Source of the DNA: an uncultured Planctomycetaceae bacterium
Lineage (GTDB): Bacteria > Planctomycetota > Planctomycetia > Pirellulales > Pirellulaceae
Assembly: GCA_903927685.1 (NCBI GenBank)
Contig: CAIYOB010000328.1
Span: forward strand, 1-9,447
Direction of reading: 5' to 3'
Length of the DNA: 9,447 nucleotides
Positions 2-7,804 of this stretch are shown piece by piece. Numbering within the stretch: the first letter of the stretch is position 1; every line of letters begins with the position of its first letter. Under the pieces are notes generated by a model, which saw only the letters and a program-made list of their open reading frames with translations, had not been told where the DNA came from and did no database searches. The position numbers and the translations under genes are program-made.

Positions 2-319
2 CCCAAGTTGGTCGCGCCGGCGCCGCGGATTGCCCCGCCTGCCAGAGGGGCGACGGCGCCGAAACCGAGCGCTGCCAAGCCGCCCCGCACCGCCGCCGTG
101 CCAACCTCCCGGACGGCAGCGTCCGGTAGCCTTGTTCCCGCCGTTCACTTGCAGGCGCCGACGCTGCCGTTCCAGGCGGCGGTCCCGGCCCGGCAGTCTT
201 GGAGCCCGCGAACCGGAACTGCGGCCACGGAGCCTGCGCGCACTTCGCCGACTCCTCCGCCGACTCCTCCGCCGTCCCGGTCCGGCGCCACGCGGCGGCG
301 AACGATTTCCGAACCCTAA
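2..319 (+). CDS. C-terminal tail of an upstream Pro/Ala-rich protein (partial, 5' end outside window)
   Basis: This frame is open from the left edge to a TAA at 317-319, about 105 residues. It is almost entirely Pro, Ala, Thr, Ser and Arg, with no recognisable domain, so it looks like a disordered C-terminal tail. Third codon positions are overwhelmingly G or C, as expected for a real GC-rich gene. The internal TTG and GTG codons have no convincing ribosome binding site, so I take the real start to lie upstream of the window. The stop is only 25 bp before the GTG start of the exbB-like gene, which suggests the same transcription unit. The function cannot be told from this fragment. The alternative is non-coding low-complexity GC-rich DNA. 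Confidence 0.5.
249..272 (+). repeat. two-copy 12-bp tandem repeat inside the Pro-rich tail
   Basis: The 12-mer CGACTCCTCCGC occurs twice in direct tandem, at 249-260 and 261-272. Twelve is a multiple of three, so it duplicates a Pro/Thr-rich tetrapeptide unit within the partial upstream coding region without breaking frame. It is a minor low-complexity expansion. Confidence 0.7.
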
Positions 320-344: not shown

Positions 345-1223
345 GTGACGAATCCCATGTCCCTGGTTCCACGGATCACGCCCTGGCCGGCGGTCGCCGG
401 CCTGCTGTTCCTGGCGGCGGCCTGCTCGCGTTTGGTCGGGCAGGATCCGGCTGGCTTGACGCCGGAGGCGACGGCCGCTTCCGCGACCGCACCGGCGCCG
501 CTGGCCGGACCGGTTGTCGACGCCGAACGGATTCCGATGAAGAACCTGTTGCAGGTCATGCGCGACGGCGGCCCGCTGATGCTCCCGATCGGGATCTGCT
601 CGGTGGTGCTGCTGGTCTTCGTGTTTGAACGCGCGATCAGCCTGCGGCGGGGACGCGTCATTCCCCGGCCGTTCGTCAAACGGTTCCTGCAACAGCTGCG
701 CGACGGCCAACTCGACTCCGAGACGGCCCTGGACCTGTGCGAGAAGAACCCCAGTCCCGTGTCCGACGTATTCGCCGCAGCGATCCGCAAGTGGGGGCGT
801 CCGGCCGTCGAGGTCGAACAGGCGATCATCGATTCGGGGGAACGCGTCGCCAACGAACTCCGCAAGTACCTGCGCGTGATCAACGGAGTCTCGACCGTCT
901 CGCCCTTGCTGGGGCTGCTGGGAACCGTGCTGGGCATGATCCAGACCTTCAATACGATCGCCGTCGGGGACGCGATGGGCCGGCCGGAGATGCTGGCGGG
1001 CGGAATCGGCCAGGCATTGCTCACCACGGCCGGCGGGCTGTGCGTGGCGATCCCCGCCTTGATCGCCTACCTGTACTTCGTCGGCCGCGTGGACCGGCTG
1101 ATCATGGATCTCGACGGACTGGGCCAGCGGATCGTCGACGTCATCGCGGCGGACAGCCCGGTGCCGCGCACTCAGGAAGCCGAACGCGCTGGCGGCGAGA
1201 GGAAGAGCCGCCGCGCGGCATAG
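345..1223 (+). CDS. exbB: MotA/TolQ/ExbB proton-channel family protein with N-terminal extension
   Basis: The protein has 292 residues from GTG 345. ExbB/TolQ proteins are inner (cytoplasmic) membrane subunits that, with ExbD/TolR, couple the proton motive force to mechanical work on a TonB- or TolA-like partner. The N-terminus has a hydrophobic stretch at about 16-27 (signal peptide or anchor) and an Ala/Pro/Thr-rich linker to about 62. The family core follows: a membrane helix at about 77-95, a cytoplasmic region at about 100-180, then two helices at about 182-205 and 225-247. The second helix carries the signature [15 protein letters not shown] (about 189-203), and a conserved Thr-Thr pair sits at 227-228. 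Such N-terminal extensions are known in long ExbB variants and in planctomycete homologues. The exbD-like gene follows after 114 bp. The family call is firm, but the energised partner is inferred from context. A basic tail (RKSRR) ends the protein. Confidence 0.93.
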
Positions 1224-1337: not shown

Positions 1338-1757
1338 ATGCCTTTGAAAACATCCCAGGATGACCTGCCGTCGATCAACCTGACGCCGATGCTCGACATC
1401 GTGTTCAATCTGATTATCTTCTTTGTCGTCGGCACACGGTTCGTCGGAGCGGAAAGCAAGTTGCCGGTCCAAGTGCCCGCGGTTTCCGAGGCGGGAAAGC
1501 TGGCCCCGGCGGTGGAAAAGTACGTCGTCAATGTCTACCGCGACGGAAAAGTCTCGCTGAACGACCAGTTCCTTACGACCGGGCAACTCTGCCAGGAACT
1601 CACTGCGGCACGAACGCGATGCCCCGGCCTGAGCGTGATCGTGCGTGGCGACGGCGAGGGTTCGTTTCAGAATGTCGCCAGCGTCTTGAACGCCTGCCGC
1701 CAGGCGGGCGTCGCCGACATGGGCATCTCGGTCCGCCTGCCGGGAAAGGGCGGCTAG
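1338..1757 (+). CDS. exbD: ExbD/TolR biopolymer transport protein
   Basis: The protein has 139 residues, typical for ExbD/TolR. A short cytoplasmic N-terminus leads into one membrane helix (about 18-36) in the context NLTPMLDIVFNLIIFF. Asp20 matches the membrane aspartate that carries protons in this family. The rest (about 45-135) is the periplasmic domain, ending in a Gly-rich tail. It contains the usual strand-helix pattern, including VVNVYRDGKVSLND and a later LSVIVRGDGEG stretch. ATG 1338 places the helix at the expected distance from the N-terminus, and there is no good upstream alternative in frame. The ribosome binding site is weak. It would pair with the ExbB-like protein upstream, and the next gene starts 3 bp after its stop, implying translational coupling. 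Confidence 0.93.
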   Translation: MPLKTSQDDLPSINLTPMLDIVFNLIIFFVVGTRFVGAESKLPVQVPAVSEAGKLAPAVEKYVVNVYRDGKVSLNDQFLTTGQLCQELTAARTRCPGLSVIVRGDGEGSFQNVASVLNACRQAGVADMGISVRLPGKGG

Positions 1758-1760
1758 CTC

Positions 1761-3758
1761 ATGAGCACCGCAGCCCCAGTCTTTGCTCAGCTTCCCGGCT
1801 GGGGCCTTGCCGGGCTCGCGTTGCAACTGAATACCGTGCTGCTGGCGGCCGGCCTGGTGACTTTGAGCGGCGGCCTGCTGGTGCTGCTGTTCACCCGCTG
1901 GGGACAAGTCCGACCGTTGGCCAAGTGCGCTGCGCTGTCCGTGTTCGCCCACCTGCTGATGCTGGCGTCGGCGTGCGGAATCCGGTTGTTTGACGAACTG
2001 CCGGCTCCGCCCCGCGAGCAAGTCATCCGGCTGTCAATGCTGGAGCCCAGCGAATCGCCGTCGGAAGCGGTGCCCGAGAATCCGGACACGGTCCCCGAGT
2101 CGTCGCCGCCGGTCCCCGAACCCATCCCGGAGCCGGCCGAACGGGTCGCCGACGAAGTCCCGCCGTCTCCCAGCCTGGCCGATCCCATTCTGGCGGAGCC
2201 CATGCCGCCGGAGTTGCTCGCCGCCCCTGCCGAATCCACTCCGTCGGACGCCCCGCCGGAATTGCTGGCCAGTCCGACGCCGGACGCGGCCTCCCCGGCC
2301 GTCGCCAGCGCGCTGCCGGAGATCCCGGAGTTGCTCCCGCAACCGGCTGTGGCGGAACCGCAGCGGTTACCGCCGGCGGAATCGGCAGCGACGCCGACCT
2401 TTCGGATTCCTGCTCAGGCGGCCCAACGTCTGACGGCGGAAAGCGAAGATCTGCAACGGCTGATCGACCTGGTCCTGCCGTCGCCGTCCGCAGACGCCCT
2501 GGCCGACTCGTCCGACCAGACCACCGCCGCGGAGAACACGAGCGGCGAGCCGGCGCCGGCCTCACCCGCACCTGCTGTCGAGCCGTCCCTGGCCGACAGC
2601 GAACACTGGACGCAAGTGCCGCCGGCCGCTGCGGCTTGGCAATTGGCGTCCTCGGCCGGCGGCCCGGCGCTGCGAGAACTGCCCGCCGGTTACCGCAGTC
2701 GCAGCATGCCGCAGCGCCAGGCAACATTGGCTGCCGGAGGAGGCAGTCAATTCACCGAGGCCGCCGTCCAGGCGGCGTTGCAGTGGCTGGCGGCGAACCA
2801 ATCCGAGGACGGCCGTTGGGATTGCAGTCTGCACGGCGGCGGCCGCGAGATGCTGACGCACGGGCACGACCGTGGCGGGGCGGGGGCTGAAGCCGACACA
2901 GCCGTCTCCGGCTTGGCCATCCTGGCCTACCTGGGCGCCGGGCAGACGCACTTGGACGGCCCCCACGCCGCGACCGTCCGGCGCGGCCTGGATTTCCTGG
3001 CTCGCAGTCAAGCGGCGGACGGCAACCTGGCCGGCAACGCCGAACTGTTCGCGCGGATGTACGCGCACGGCATGGCCACGTTGGCGGTGGCCGAAGCCTA
3101 CGGGATGAGTGGTGATGCGGGCCTACGGCCGTGCCTGGAACGGGCTCTCGGGTATACGATTCGCGCCCAGCATCCGGTGACGGGAGGCTGGCGCTACCAG
3201 CCGGGCGATGACGGAGATACCAGCCAGTTGGGCTGGCAACTGATGGCGTTGCACAGCGCCCAACTGGCCGGCCTGCCCGTTCCCGCCACGACGCGAGCCG
3301 GGATGATCCGCTTTCTGAACAGCGTGACGACGGGACCACAGCGCGGCTTGGCGAGCTACCGCCCCCGGACGGCGCCGTCCCGTACAATGACCGCCGAGGC
3401 ATTGGTCTGCCGCATGTTCCTGGGAGTGAAACAGGACGAGGCCGCGATTCGAGAAGCGATCGCGTACCTGCTGCAAGAAACCCCGCAGGCCGGACCGTTC
3501 AACGAGTACTACTGGTACTACGCCACGCTGGCCCTGTTCCAGTTGCAAGGCGACGCCTGGGAAGCTTGGAACGGGGCCCTTCAAGAGCGGCTGCTCGCCT
3601 CGCAGGAGACCAGCGGCACCCTCGCCGGCAGCTGGCCCACCAACACCGTCTGGGGCGGCTACGGCGGCCGCGTCTACACCACGGCCATGAACGCCCTGTG
3701 CCTGGAAGTCTACTACCGCCATCTGCCGCTGTACGCCACTCCCGGCGGCGGCCAATGA
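1761..3758 (+). CDS. TonB-like N-terminus fused by Pro/Glu linker to a prenyltransferase/squalene-cyclase-like alpha/alpha toroid
   Basis: The protein has 665 residues. Two hydrophobic segments (about 22-45 and 54-77) start it. The second contains S60-V-F-A-H64, an S-x-x-x-H motif like the one TonB uses in its membrane helix to contact ExbBD. Residues about 80-310 are a Pro/Glu/Ala-rich linker, as in TonB, where such a linker spans the periplasm. Residues about 330-655 are helical repeats of the prenyltransferase/squalene oxidase-repeat type: ALQWLAANQSEDGRWD (339-354), AVSGLAILAYLGAG, LDFLARSQAADGNL, GDDGDTSQLGWQLMALHSA (482-500), and a C-terminal YGGRVYTTAMNALCLEVYYR. The DxDD acid motif of squalene-hopene cyclases is absent (DDGDTS occurs instead), so cyclase chemistry is unlikely. 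A binding, inhibitor-like or structural role is more plausible. The 3-bp gap after exbD indicates one operon. The toroid family and position are firm; the TonB-like coupling is inference. Confidence 0.88.
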   Translation: MSTAAPVFAQLPGWGLAGLALQLNTVLLAAGLVTLSGGLLVLLFTRWGQVRPLAKCAALSVFAHLLMLASACGIRLFDELPAPPREQVIRLSMLEPSESPSEAVPENPDTVPESSPPVPEPIPEPAERVADEVPPSPSLADPILAEPMPPELLAAPAESTPSDAPPELLASPTPDAASPAVASALPEIPELLPQPAVAEPQRLPPAESAATPTFRIPAQAAQRLTAESEDLQRLIDLVLPSPSADALADSSDQTTAAENTSGEPAPASPAPAVEPSLADSEHWTQVPPAAAAWQLASSAGGPALRELPAGYRSRSMPQRQATLAAGGGSQFTEAAVQAALQWLAANQSEDGRWDCSLHGGGREMLTHGHDRGGAGAEADTAVSGLAILAYLGAGQTHLDGPHAATVRRGLDFLARSQAADGNLAGNAELFARMYAHGMATLAVAEAYGMSGDAGLRPCLERALGYTIRAQHPVTGGWRYQPGDDGDTSQLGWQLMALHSAQLAGLPVPATTRAGMIRFLNSVTTGPQRGLASYRPRTAPSRTMTAEALVCRMFLGVKQDEAAIREAIAYLLQETPQAGPFNEYYWYYATLALFQLQGDAWEAWNGALQERLLASQETSGTLAGSWPTNTVWGGYGGRVYTTAMNALCLEVYYRHLPLYATPGGGQ

Positions 3759-4049: not shown

Positions 4050-5036
4050 TCACGGCTCGCTCGGCAGCGAATACTTCGCCAGGATGACCGTCACGTTGTC
4101 CCTGCCGCCGCGCCGCAGGGCTTCGTCCACAAGTCGTCGGCAACCGTCGGCAGCGGACTCGGCGCGGGCGATGATCTCGCCGATCGCGGCGTGTTCAATC
4201 ATGTTGGTCAGCCCATCCGTGCACAGCAACAGTTGATCCCCATCCTCCAGACGCCTGATCTGCACCTCGGGAGCGTCCTTCGCTCCGCGGCCGCCCAGCA
4301 CCCCGGTCAGCATGTGCCGCCAGCGGTGGGTCAGGGCCTGCTCGGCGGTGACCTGGCCCGCATCGAGCAGGGCTTGTGCCAGGGTCTGGTCGCGAGTGAG
4401 CTGTTCCAGGTTACCCTGCCGCAGCAGGTAAGCCCGCGAGTCGCCGGTGTGGATGACGAACAGGTCGGCCCCAAAGCTGCAGGCCACCGTCAAGGTCGTC
4501 CCCATCCCGAACAGCGAGGGATCCTCCTTCGCCCGGTCGACCAACGCCTGATCAATCTGGTGGAAGCGGCGCAGGGCCCTGGCGATCAAGGCGCGAATGG
4601 CCCGCTCGCGGGTTTGGGGCTGATCCAGCTTCAGCCACCACTTCGCCGAGTTGAGGATGAGATTCACGCCCGTCCGCAGGGCCAAGCGGCTGGCGAGATC
4701 GCCTGCGGCCGCTCCGCCCATGCCATCGGCCACGCAAAACGCGTATGCGGTCTCGCCGAATTGGCGTGGCAGGTCTTCCTCCGGCAGACTCGTCCGCAAT
4801 CGTTCCCAGGAGCGGCTGGCGCGGTACACCAGGAACGCGTCCTCGTTCCTGGGACGGACTCGCCCCGGGTGCGACAGCGCCTCGAAATCCACGGACACGA
4901 GCGACGAGTAAGGTTCCGGCCGTTCCGTCTCCAGATCAAAGACGGTGAAGTCCAAGGTATCGGACACAGCCGGGTTGTCCGGGTCGGGACCGGACTCGAT
5001 TTCCACCCGCAGGTCAGCTTCGGCTTCCGGCTTCAT
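4050..5036 (-). CDS. PP2C/PPM-family Ser/Thr protein phosphatase
   Basis: The protein has 328 residues. It is a metal-dependent phosphatase removing phosphate from Ser/Thr residues, the usual antagonist of Hanks-type kinases. Family motifs appear in order: RPRNED (61-66, metal-binding Asp66), ADGMGGAAAGD (103-113), GTTLTV (179-184), IHTGDSRAYLLR (195-206), LCTDGL (271-276) and GGRDNVTV (310-317). All the metal-coordinating Asp positions appear to be present. An acidic, Glu/Pro-rich N-terminus of about 45 residues precedes the catalytic domain, and there is no membrane segment, so it is cytoplasmic. ATG 5036 is chosen because AGAGAGGA lies 7 nt upstream and because it leaves 25 bp to the preceding gene. 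The frame extends to 5114 but would then overlap that gene. It appears to be the second gene of a unit with the metallopeptidase. No kinase is in the window, so the substrate is unknown. Confidence 0.93.
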   Translation of the reverse strand: MKPEAEADLRVEIESGPDPDNPAVSDTLDFTVFDLETERPEPYSSLVSVDFEALSHPGRVRPRNEDAFLVYRASRSWERLRTSLPEEDLPRQFGETAYAFCVADGMGGAAAGDLASRLALRTGVNLILNSAKWWLKLDQPQTRERAIRALIARALRRFHQIDQALVDRAKEDPSLFGMGTTLTVACSFGADLFVIHTGDSRAYLLRQGNLEQLTRDQTLAQALLDAGQVTAEQALTHRWRHMLTGVLGGRGAKDAPEVQIRRLEDGDQLLLCTDGLTNMIEHAAIGEIIARAESAADGCRRLVDEALRRGGRDNVTVILAKYSLPSEP

Positions 5037-5043
5037 CTCGTCG

Positions 5044-5051
5044 TCCTCTCT
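5044..5051 (-). promoter_or_regulatory. ribosome binding site of the PP2C gene
   Basis: On the minus strand AGAGAGGA ends 7 nt before ATG 5036. It selects this start over longer in-frame versions and lies in the short gap after the metallopeptidase stop at 5062. Confidence 0.65.
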
Positions 5052-5061
5052 CCGCCACCCT

Positions 5062-5928
5062 TCACAGCTCCGCCTCCGGCAACTCGAACAGATCCTTGGC
5101 CGCCGCCAAGTCACCGGTCTTCAAGCCCAGCCTGAACCAGCGGGAGCGCTGCTCGGAGCTTCCATGCGTGAAGGAATCCGGAACGATATATCCCTGCGAT
5201 TCTCTCTGCAGCCGATCATCGCCGACGGCGGCGGCGGCCCGCAGCCCCTCTTCGATGTCGCCCGACTCCAGGATGTTCTTCATCTTCTGGGCATGATGCG
5301 CCCACACGCCTGCCAGATAGTCCGCCTGCAATTCGAGCCGCACGGACAGTCGGTTCTGCGCCGCCTTGCTGACCCGCTCGCGCTGCTTGTCCACCAAGTC
5401 CATGAAGCCTATTTGTTTCTGTACATGGTGGCCGACTTCGTGGGCCAGCACGTAGGCGACCGCAAAGTCGCCCGGCGCCTTGTACTTGTCCTGCAGTTCC
5501 TGACAGAAGCTCAGATCCAGGTAGACGCTTTCGTCTGCCGGACAGTAGAACGGGCCCATCGCGGCGCTCGCAAAGCCGCACGCCGACTTCACCTGGCCCG
5601 AAAACAGAACCAGCTTCGGCTCGCGGTATTTGCCGCCCAGTTGCTTCGGGAACAGCACGTTCCACACGTCCTCGGTGTCGGCCAGCACCACGGACACGAA
5701 CTGCCGCAGGGGCTCTTCCTCCGGGTCTGCCTGTACCGCCACCCGCCCCGGCTGGACGGCAGGCGGGTTAGCAGCCTGCTCGAGCAGCGCCTGCGGGTCG
5801 CCGCCCAGGAGAGCCACCAGCAGCACCAACAACAGCGTTCCCAATCCCCCGCCCATCACCAGCCCGCGAACAGGAACGCCGCGGCGATCTTCCACGTTGC
5901 CACTTTCCCTACGACCTTGCCAACGCAT
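5062..5928 (-). CDS. ypfJ: neutral zinc metallopeptidase, YpfJ family
   Basis: The protein has 288 residues, the usual length for this family. The N-terminus MRWQGRRESGNVEDRRG is characteristic and fixes the start at 5928. It is followed by one membrane helix (about 24-42), a short linker, and the peptidase domain (about 70-285). The zinc site is HEVGHH (163-168) inside YVLAHEVGHHVQKQ. The likely third ligand is Glu199 in RLELQADYLAGVWAHH. Other family blocks are GFASAAMGPFYCPADESVYLDLSF in the middle and FTHGSSEQRSRWF near the end. The membrane anchor suggests the domain lies outside the cytoplasm. The physiological substrate of the family is poorly known. This is the first gene of the minus-strand pair with the PP2C phosphatase, and its promoter should lie in the 5929-6476 gap. 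Confidence 0.93.
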   Translation of the reverse strand: MRWQGRRESGNVEDRRGVPVRGLVMGGGLGTLLLVLLVALLGGDPQALLEQAANPPAVQPGRVAVQADPEEEPLRQFVSVVLADTEDVWNVLFPKQLGGKYREPKLVLFSGQVKSACGFASAAMGPFYCPADESVYLDLSFCQELQDKYKAPGDFAVAYVLAHEVGHHVQKQIGFMDLVDKQRERVSKAAQNRLSVRLELQADYLAGVWAHHAQKMKNILESGDIEEGLRAAAAVGDDRLQRESQGYIVPDSFTHGSSEQRSRWFRLGLKTGDLAAAKDLFELPEAEL

Positions 5929-6476: not shown

Positions 6477-7804
6477 ATGAAACAGCACTCACTTTCCCGC
6501 TCTGCCGTTGCCGCGTTGTGGGCAATCCTCCTTTCCGCCTTCCTCGTCCATGTGGCTGCGGCGGGTGAGCTGCGATTTGCCGGGGCGCTGGGGAACTCGA
6601 CCGAGTCTGTCGCGGCCTTTGCCGGCACGACGGCCGCCGGGATGGGACCGGTGATCGACGACGAAACAGCGATCTGGGAGCGTGGCGGCAGCACGCGGCT
6701 GAACCGCTATGCGCTCGATGGCCGGCTGCTGGCGAGTCTTGACCTTCCCGAAAGCCAGAATCGCGAGGATCAGCTCACGCGAGTGGGAAACCGGCTGCTG
6801 CTCAAGCTCGGCCGGACGATTGACACGCTGGCGTTGGATGCCGCGCCGGGCACGAAGCCGCAAAACCTGGAGGTCACTGCCGAAGTGATGTCGTCGAGCG
6901 CGTGCGGAGGCCGCGTGGTGCTGTTCGACAAGAACGCGGGCGAGTTGTTCTGGTTCGACCCGGCCACAGGCTCGCGCACGCTCCTTGCAAAGCCCGAAGG
7001 CGACGTGACCGGACTGCACGTCGGCGCGGACGGCACCGTGTTTGTCTTCGGCGGGAACCAGGTGCGTGCCTGGAAGGACGGCCAGCCGGTCAGCGGCTTC
7101 GCGAAGGAATTCCGAGGCGAACGGCCGCAGAAGATCGGGGACCACTGGTTCAGCCACACGTGGCACGGGACCATCAACCGGATGAACGATCGGTTTGAGC
7201 CCGAGCCGGGCGTGGTTCTGGGCGGTGCGTCGGGTTCGTTCATCGGCTATCTGCCGCAGAGCGCCGGGTGCAAGACCCCTCGCCCTGGATCAACCACGGC
7301 CGCGACTGGACCAAGCTGTTCGCCACCGGCGACACCGTCGATTTCCAGTTCGCCACCGATGCCCAAGCCGATCCCCAGCGCCGCGGGCCGGTCCCGGACG
7401 ACAAGCGGCTCGTCATCGCGTCCTTCGCAGGCCAGAGCGTCGCGGTGCTGTACGAGCATCGCAAACCGGGCGGCGAAAACCCCATTGAATTCACTTCGCC
7501 CTGGCGAGGTGAGAGAGTGGACGACGTCAGGCAAGTGCCCGGCGTCCAGATCGACGTCAAGACCAGCGATGGCGGCTACGAACTCAACGCCGCCATCCCG
7601 TTACAGGCCCTCGGGCTGAGCCTCGCGCCCGCCCAGAGCATCCGCGCCGACTTCGGCGTCACCTACGGCGACGCCCGCGGCACCGACACGAACCTGCGTT
7701 CTTACTGGTCGAACCAATGCACCGGCCTCGTCGACGACATCCCCGGCGAAATCATGCTCTCGCCGGACCTGTGGGGACAGTTGGAGCTGCGGAAGGGAAC
7801 ATGA
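6477..7804 (+). pseudogene. secreted propeller/CBM9-like protein, disrupted by internal deletion and frame change
   Basis: ATG 6477 begins a Sec signal peptide (basic start, hydrophobic core to about residue 27, AAA before Gly30). It is followed by about 230 residues with the repeating strand pattern of an NHL/beta-propeller protein (for example [50 protein letters not shown]). Coherent sequence in this frame stops at about [12 protein letters not shown] (to about 7259); the frame then runs nonsensically to a stop at 7617-7619. From about 7268 a different frame reads [17 protein letters not shown] and continues to a TGA at 7802-7804. It ends as a typical family 9 carbohydrate-binding-like module: [28 protein letters not shown], then [17 protein letters not shown] and LWGQLEL. 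The start of that module is missing, so sequence was lost at about 7251-7271, not merely one base. Broken, unless the assembly is wrong. The original was probably an exported carbohydrate- or surface-associated protein. Confidence 0.8.

Follow-up and report, generated by a model that had tools for sequence, protein, structure and literature searches.

A squalene-cyclase-like toroid on a TonB-like anchor: a probable motor-driven transducer of the planctomycete envelope

The closest described counterparts of the system considered here are the envelope transducers that work with proton motors of the ExbB-ExbD kind. TonB of E. coli joins a single N-terminal helix bearing a Ser-x-x-x-His motif (hereafter S...H) to a Pro/Glu-rich linker and a TonB C-terminal domain, with ExbBD as its partners. 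TolA of the Tol-Pal system likewise combines an S...H helix with motor subunits, and has a CpoB/YbgF-like tetratricopeptide repeat (TPR) gene nearby. We analysed a stretch of 9,447 nucleotides (the window) of contig CAIYOB010000328.1 from an uncultured Planctomycetaceae bacterium, in which exbB and exbD are followed by a gene whose product carries these same features and ends in an alpha/alpha toroid, the fold of squalene-hopene cyclase (SHC). The protein probably transmits force from a proton motor through its toroid head, as part of a Tol-Pal-like envelope system.

Heads other than the TonB domain have already been proposed on the same kind of anchor in the vWA force transducers (Williams-Jones et al. 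2025, PMC12204202). The accessible part of that paper gives them an S...H helix, a proline-rich linker and, as reported in the Planctomycetes-Verrucomicrobia-Chlamydiae (PVC) group, the gene order TPR-tolQ-tolR-transducer, an order that is also met in toroid loci. Their head has the vWA fold, whereas ours is an SHC-like toroid and its operonic form has two helices. From TonB the protein differs in its second helix, in its head and in not keeping the Leu and the last Ser of the SHLS motif, and related toroid loci add a TPR gene to the operon; from TolA it differs in lacking the TolA C-terminal domain. The toroid-headed protein is a new variation on the published theme of non-TonB heads. Among the open papers searched, none was found to describe a toroid head; subscription papers and preprints lay outside the search.

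Anchor, motor and head

The three genes follow one another in the same direction on the plus strand, the toroid gene starting three bases past the end of exbD (Table 1). An earlier note, made from the letters of the window, had placed two N-terminal helices and S60-x-x-x-H64 at the start of a gene directly after exbD, and both the sequence and the structure model confirm this. Conservation was judged in 113 homologues of at least 590 amino acids, found among the 120 matches listed of 2181 (seven of the 120 were shorter and were dropped). In 112 of these both S60 and H64 are conserved, the one remaining row having a gap, which bears out the conservation that the note had proposed to check. In the accessible text of its description, the SHLS motif reads Ser-3X-His-6X-Leu-3X-Ser, with Ser and His as the contact hub and the Leu of TonB making no contact (PMC12905483).

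A predicted beta strand that follows the helix is called the motor box in the accessible part of PMC12204202. The window protein has I89-R-L91-S-M93-L94 starting 25 residues past H64, and positions 89, 91, 93 and 94 are hydrophobic in 112, 113, 107 and 104 of the 113 homologues, respectively. This stretch is in register with I45-S-V47-T-M49-V50 of E. coli TonB, which we take to be its motor box and which starts 25 residues past H20; I89 and L91 thus stand at H+25 and H+27, like I45 and V47. The region is disordered in the structure model, and the strand is a pattern in the sequence, not an observed one. Beyond it, where TonB has its linker, comes the long linker that the note had described as Pro/Glu-rich and that is rich in Pro, Ala and Glu, and then, as the note had also read it, a squalene-cyclase-like toroid as C-terminal head. 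A Pfam search of the protein with E up to 0.1 returned no TonB_C or TolA C-terminal domain, and no VWA match either.

The loop between the two helices (residues 44-56) has a net charge of +2 to +5 in 112 of the 113 homologues, for which reason the toroid should be periplasmic. Four anchorless paralogues that were examined begin with signal-like segments. Both observations agree with the earlier placing of the toroid outside the cytoplasm and make a cytoplasmic toroid unlikely.

The sequences of exbB and exbD are those of sound motor genes. The pore threonines T145 and T178 of TolQ correspond to T194 and T228 of the window ExbB and are Thr in 61 and 59 of 62 ExbB rows; S28 of TolQ transmembrane helix 1 is likewise kept in 59 of the 62. 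D20 of the window ExbD aligns with D23 of TolR, the proton-carrying Asp, and is kept in 71 of 72 ExbD rows, the remaining row being a gap (one exbD open reading frame of more than 200 amino acids was excluded from this alignment). We chose the GTG at 345 as the exbB start, and the ExbB that results has a signal-like segment at its N-terminus.

Table 1. Coordinates of the operon, of the parts of its toroid-headed product and of the preceding reading frame in the window
Feature	Coordinates	Strand	Basis or remarks
exbB/tolQ-like motor subunit	345..1223	+	292 amino acids; PF01618 95.8 bits, cut-off 22.9
exbD/tolR-like motor subunit	1338..1757	+	139 amino acids; PF02472 83.4 bits, cut-off 25.4
Probable toroid-headed transducer	1761..3758	+	665 amino acids
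Transmembrane helix 1 (residues 14-44), predicted out-to-in	1800..1892	+	helix in model; positive loop after it
Transmembrane helix 2 (residues 52-73) with S60 and H64, TonB/TolA-like, putatively motor-binding	1914..1979	+	model and conservation
Motor-box-like strand (residues 88-94)	2022..2042	+	sequence pattern
Pro/Ala/Glu-rich, mostly disordered linker (residues about 96-300)	2046..2660	+	model and sequence
Squalene-cyclase-like (alpha/alpha)6 toroid (residues 321-658)	2721..3734	+	confident structure model; without D.DD
3' end of upstream Pro/Ala-rich open reading frame	2..319	+	ends 25 bases before exbB; cut by window edge

The operon ends at 3758, because the genes downstream sit on the other strand: a PP2C-type phosphatase (4050-5114) and a PF04228 zinc metallopeptidase (5062-5928), both on the minus strand, converge on it. 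Upstream, the window cuts off the place where the TPR gene stands in related loci, and the reading frame at 2-319, of which only the 3' part lies within the window, had no match in a Pfam search. Further off, a gene at 6477-7804 changes reading frame near 7265 and is split in two; its start looks like that of an exported protein, and the C-terminal part weakly resembles CBM9.

Gene neighbourhood and distribution of the family

A GTDB genome scan with alignment gave 533 relatives, of which the best 80 loci, not a random sample, were kept; 74 of these have at least 1.2 kb of upstream sequence and six have less. Start codons were set by script at the first possible ones, so that some distances are off and the separate counts for exbD and exbB are lower bounds. 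Among the 74 loci, exbD occurs within 300 bases upstream in at least 61, exbB within 1300 bases in at least 61, both in 51, and at least one in 71. The three loci with neither call are L005, a split reading frame with exbD beside its first part, and L063 and L080, where none was found. A second set comprised the 30 best-scoring loci from 57 genomes of the order of Bythopirellula polymerisocia (genome G001, locus L038), which we take to be Pirellulales in the phylum Planctomycetota; it may overlap the first set. Here both motor genes stand upstream in 29 loci, and L149 has none. The co-occurrence with exbBD on which the earlier note's reading leaned is thus found, and that reading, of an ExbBD-powered machine with a periplasmic toroid, is supported. 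The note itself mentions neither the motor box nor the TPR gene, and neither the paralogues across the phylum nor the vWA precedent.

With three of the 80 loci excluded for a toroid reading frame open at the contig end, 77 complete proteins remain. Automatic detection placed S...H within a membrane helix in 65 of them, and the reading of L004, L061 and L065 brought the number to 68. In the second set the motif is present in 29 of 30 proteins, L141 having A...H. Of 829 predicted helices in other reading frames at the loci, 12 carry it, and VWA proteins account for four of these. Upstream of exbB, 40 of the 52 loci where this could be tested have a TPR gene belonging to one family, and the one TPR protein tested scored 276 bits against TIGR02795 (tol-pal YbgF; cut-off 90.1), which makes it CpoB/YbgF-like.

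Several loci vary the arrangement. At L061, L065 and L075, exbB lies upstream of the toroid gene and no exbD was recognised by the profile; it may be elsewhere or too divergent. L180 has the reversed order toroid-exbB-exbD. L069, a TPR-exbB-exbD-toroid locus, belongs to a Candidatus Sumerlaeia genome, by its title outside Planctomycetota. The minus strand of L049 (18017-22211) and of L071 (16473-20558) encodes paired proteins that match VWA and have S...H helices, which resemble the published vWA transducers; among the four, two score above the VWA cut-off and two just below.

All 57 genomes of the order possess the toroid family, with two to eight matches each (E up to 1e-60), as do 126 of 149 genomes of the phylum (E up to 1e-40). 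TonB_C was found in 22 of the 57 and a TonB-dependent-receptor plug above the cut-off in 29. A toroid system that excludes TonB is not supported, both occurring in those 22 genomes. The TolB_N profile, a further point of difference from Tol-Pal, matched none of the 57 and was positive in three of 14 control genomes, including E. coli. A scan of viral contigs found no relative.

Beyond the operonic form, the family is rich in paralogues. Among 28 loci of the phylum set, 19 have S...H, two have A...H and seven have neither or are unclear. A paralogue survey of eight genomes yielded 31 further loci with 33 toroid reading frames, comprising 22 membrane-anchored proteins (21 with S...H, L109 without), 10 with no anchor or motif, and one fragment. 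Orphan toroids with a single TonB-like helix are common. Examples with one S...H helix and no exbBD nearby occur among L091-L121 (for instance L100, L104, L106 and L111), with a tail N-terminal to the helix that is Pro-rich in some. The domain also has another context: at L094 (618-5999) an anchorless toroid of about 380 amino acids lies beside MoxR-type AAA, DUF58 and BatA/vWA genes.

A PD40 propeller is fused to the toroid in six loci (L064, L067, L068, L072, L073 and L079). These proteins, of 1202-1589 amino acids and with one N-terminal helix, are located after exbBD, and exbB, exbD and the TPR gene are present at all six. CarboxypepD_reg occurs above the cut-off in L067 and L072 and just below it in L079. 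This combination recalls PorE, described as a CpoB-TolB-carboxypeptidase-Pal fusion and an outer-membrane lipoprotein of Bacteroidetes in the accessible part of PMC12204202, which mentions no toroid for it. Three of the four kinds of PorE part surround the toroid in the propeller-toroid loci.

The toroid and the alternative readings

The fold of the head, in the structure model, has terpene cyclases, the transaldolase AprG, GH76 mannanases and sugar 2-epimerases among its neighbours. The nearest solved structures (the group of 2sqc, 8paj, 8pak and 6sbb, which are SHC/type II terpene cyclases) share 16-19% identity with it. Sequence searches of solved structures with the window protein or A1 gave weak local cyclase matches only, and a match of the linker region to a cilia protein was judged compositional; a mixed toroid profile clearly found SHC. 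The repeats align with SHC in several registers, and it is ambiguous which inner helix matches the DxDD helix of SHC. Pocket conservation was judged from the residues at the inner-helix starts, standing in for the cavity lining. W477 and Y479, together with Y434, D486 and Y587, are nearly fixed across five toroid classes. W492, R637, E649 and Y651 mark the anchored toroids, orphan and propeller forms included, and are found in only 1/10, 1/9, 0/10 and 0/10 of the anchorless ones.

Some matches bear the public name squalene--hopene cyclase or terpene cyclase, and fold and sequence do relate the head to these enzymes, yet an ordinary cyclase of this kind is very improbable. The window protein scores 24.5 bits against TIGR01507 (cut-off 431.1) and 23.2 against PF13243 (cut-off 26.1), consists of a single toroid predicted to be periplasmic, and is encoded in an operon with a proton motor. 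The earlier note's statement that DxDD is missing holds for this protein and fails for some relatives: D.DD occurs after residue 280 in eight of 113 (six in the loop that leads into the sixth inner helix, one lying 13 residues ahead of W631 and one within the C-terminal tail), and a further 22 have D.D[T/S] in the loop leading into the sixth inner helix, so that the family keeps no acid pair there. That loop (residues 626-629, window 3636-3647) reads PTNT in the window protein; with the motif in 28 of 113 relatives, it may be what is left of the acid motif of a cyclase, or else an independent site. A working periplasmic enzyme on glycan, peptidoglycan or lipid, which the motor would deliver or whose substrate access it would power or position instead of pulling a partner, is a more serious candidate, if still an unlikely one. 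The fold neighbours fit it, as do the conserved Y434, D486 and Y587 and H436, present in 10/10 anchorless and 73/74 operonic forms. D.D[D/T] stands near the first inner helix in 24 of 113 relatives and near the sixth in 27; from the sequences, such acidic motifs are present in part of the family and not conserved. E546 and W585 vary by class and H436 is Gln in 6 of 19 orphans, unlike one fixed chemistry, and the comparison yielded neither a substrate nor a known catalytic set.

It is also rather improbable, less so than an ordinary cyclase, that the protein is merely membrane-anchored and co-transcribed, with ExbBD driving something else and the S...H helix inherited without mechanical coupling. 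Several findings that weigh against a force transducer would suit this account. Motor genes are lacking beside 28 of the 31 paralogue loci (both adjoin the gene in three) and in the short flank of 21 of the 28 phylum-set loci (exbD or exbB adjoins seven). Although they stand behind exbBD, the six PD40-toroid proteins lack both S...H and A...H. Only the Ser and His of SHLS are kept, the Leu position being Ala in 108 of 113 homologues and the last Ser position Arg in 48, Gln in 20, Lys in 19 and Ser in three. Further points against the force transducer are A...H in place of S...H in L020, L039 and L066 (3/77), the Trp of TolQ transmembrane helix 1 (W32, if that is the residue meant in the review), which is not kept in the 62 ExbB rows, the acidic motifs of some relatives, and a pocket that could equally be catalytic. 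Because so few paralogue loci adjoin exbBD, motor adjacency is a trait of particular operonic forms. Absence of coupling would nevertheless leave it to be explained why two residues stay fixed in 112 of 113 homologues while the hydrophobic helix around them varies, together with the motor box and the near-constant order exbB-exbD-toroid of the operonic form; orphans also retain S...H, which is what one would expect of proteins served by a motor from another locus.

A proposed mechanism and its meaning for planctomycetes

For the force transducer, which we favour, we infer from the observed anatomy, conservation, operon, fold and distribution a docking on ExbBD, a movement, a partner or ligand and a role in the envelope. 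ExbBD would energise a periplasmic transducer that works like TolA or TonB. Helix 2, with S60 and H64, would dock at the rim of the ExbB5-ExbD2 motor, and the motor-box strand and proline-rich linker would carry motion across the periplasm. Out at the peptidoglycan or the outer membrane, the toroid may use its conserved aromatic and charged pocket to hold on to a ligand or partner. Together with the upstream CpoB/YbgF-like TPR protein, the transducer would form a Tol-Pal-like envelope machine of Planctomycetota; in the order sampled there, no canonical TolB was found.

Planctomycetes have only a largely reduced Tol-Pal system, according to the accessible text of PMC8871954. We suggest, tentatively, that Planctomycetota may have replaced the TolB/Pal end with phylum-wide toroid-headed transducers. 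The operonic form would have a motor and a TPR protein to itself, several orphan S...H forms would draw on shared motors, and the envelope ligand gripped would differ from toroid to toroid. Heads would then be exchangeable on the motor (TonB_C, vWA or toroid), and the toroid would be the first terpene-cyclase fold that a proton motor uses to pull. If this is true, 5:2 proton motors accept exchangeable heads and the terpene-cyclase fold gains a mechanical role. Since the toroid family is found in every genome sampled from the order, and 29 of the 30 loci with its best-scoring copies place the gene in an operon with exbB and exbD, it is a concrete candidate for how planctomycetes energise their envelope and hold it together. 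A TonB/TolA-like rod with a ring-shaped head points to an undescribed motor-driven machine in the planctomycete envelope.
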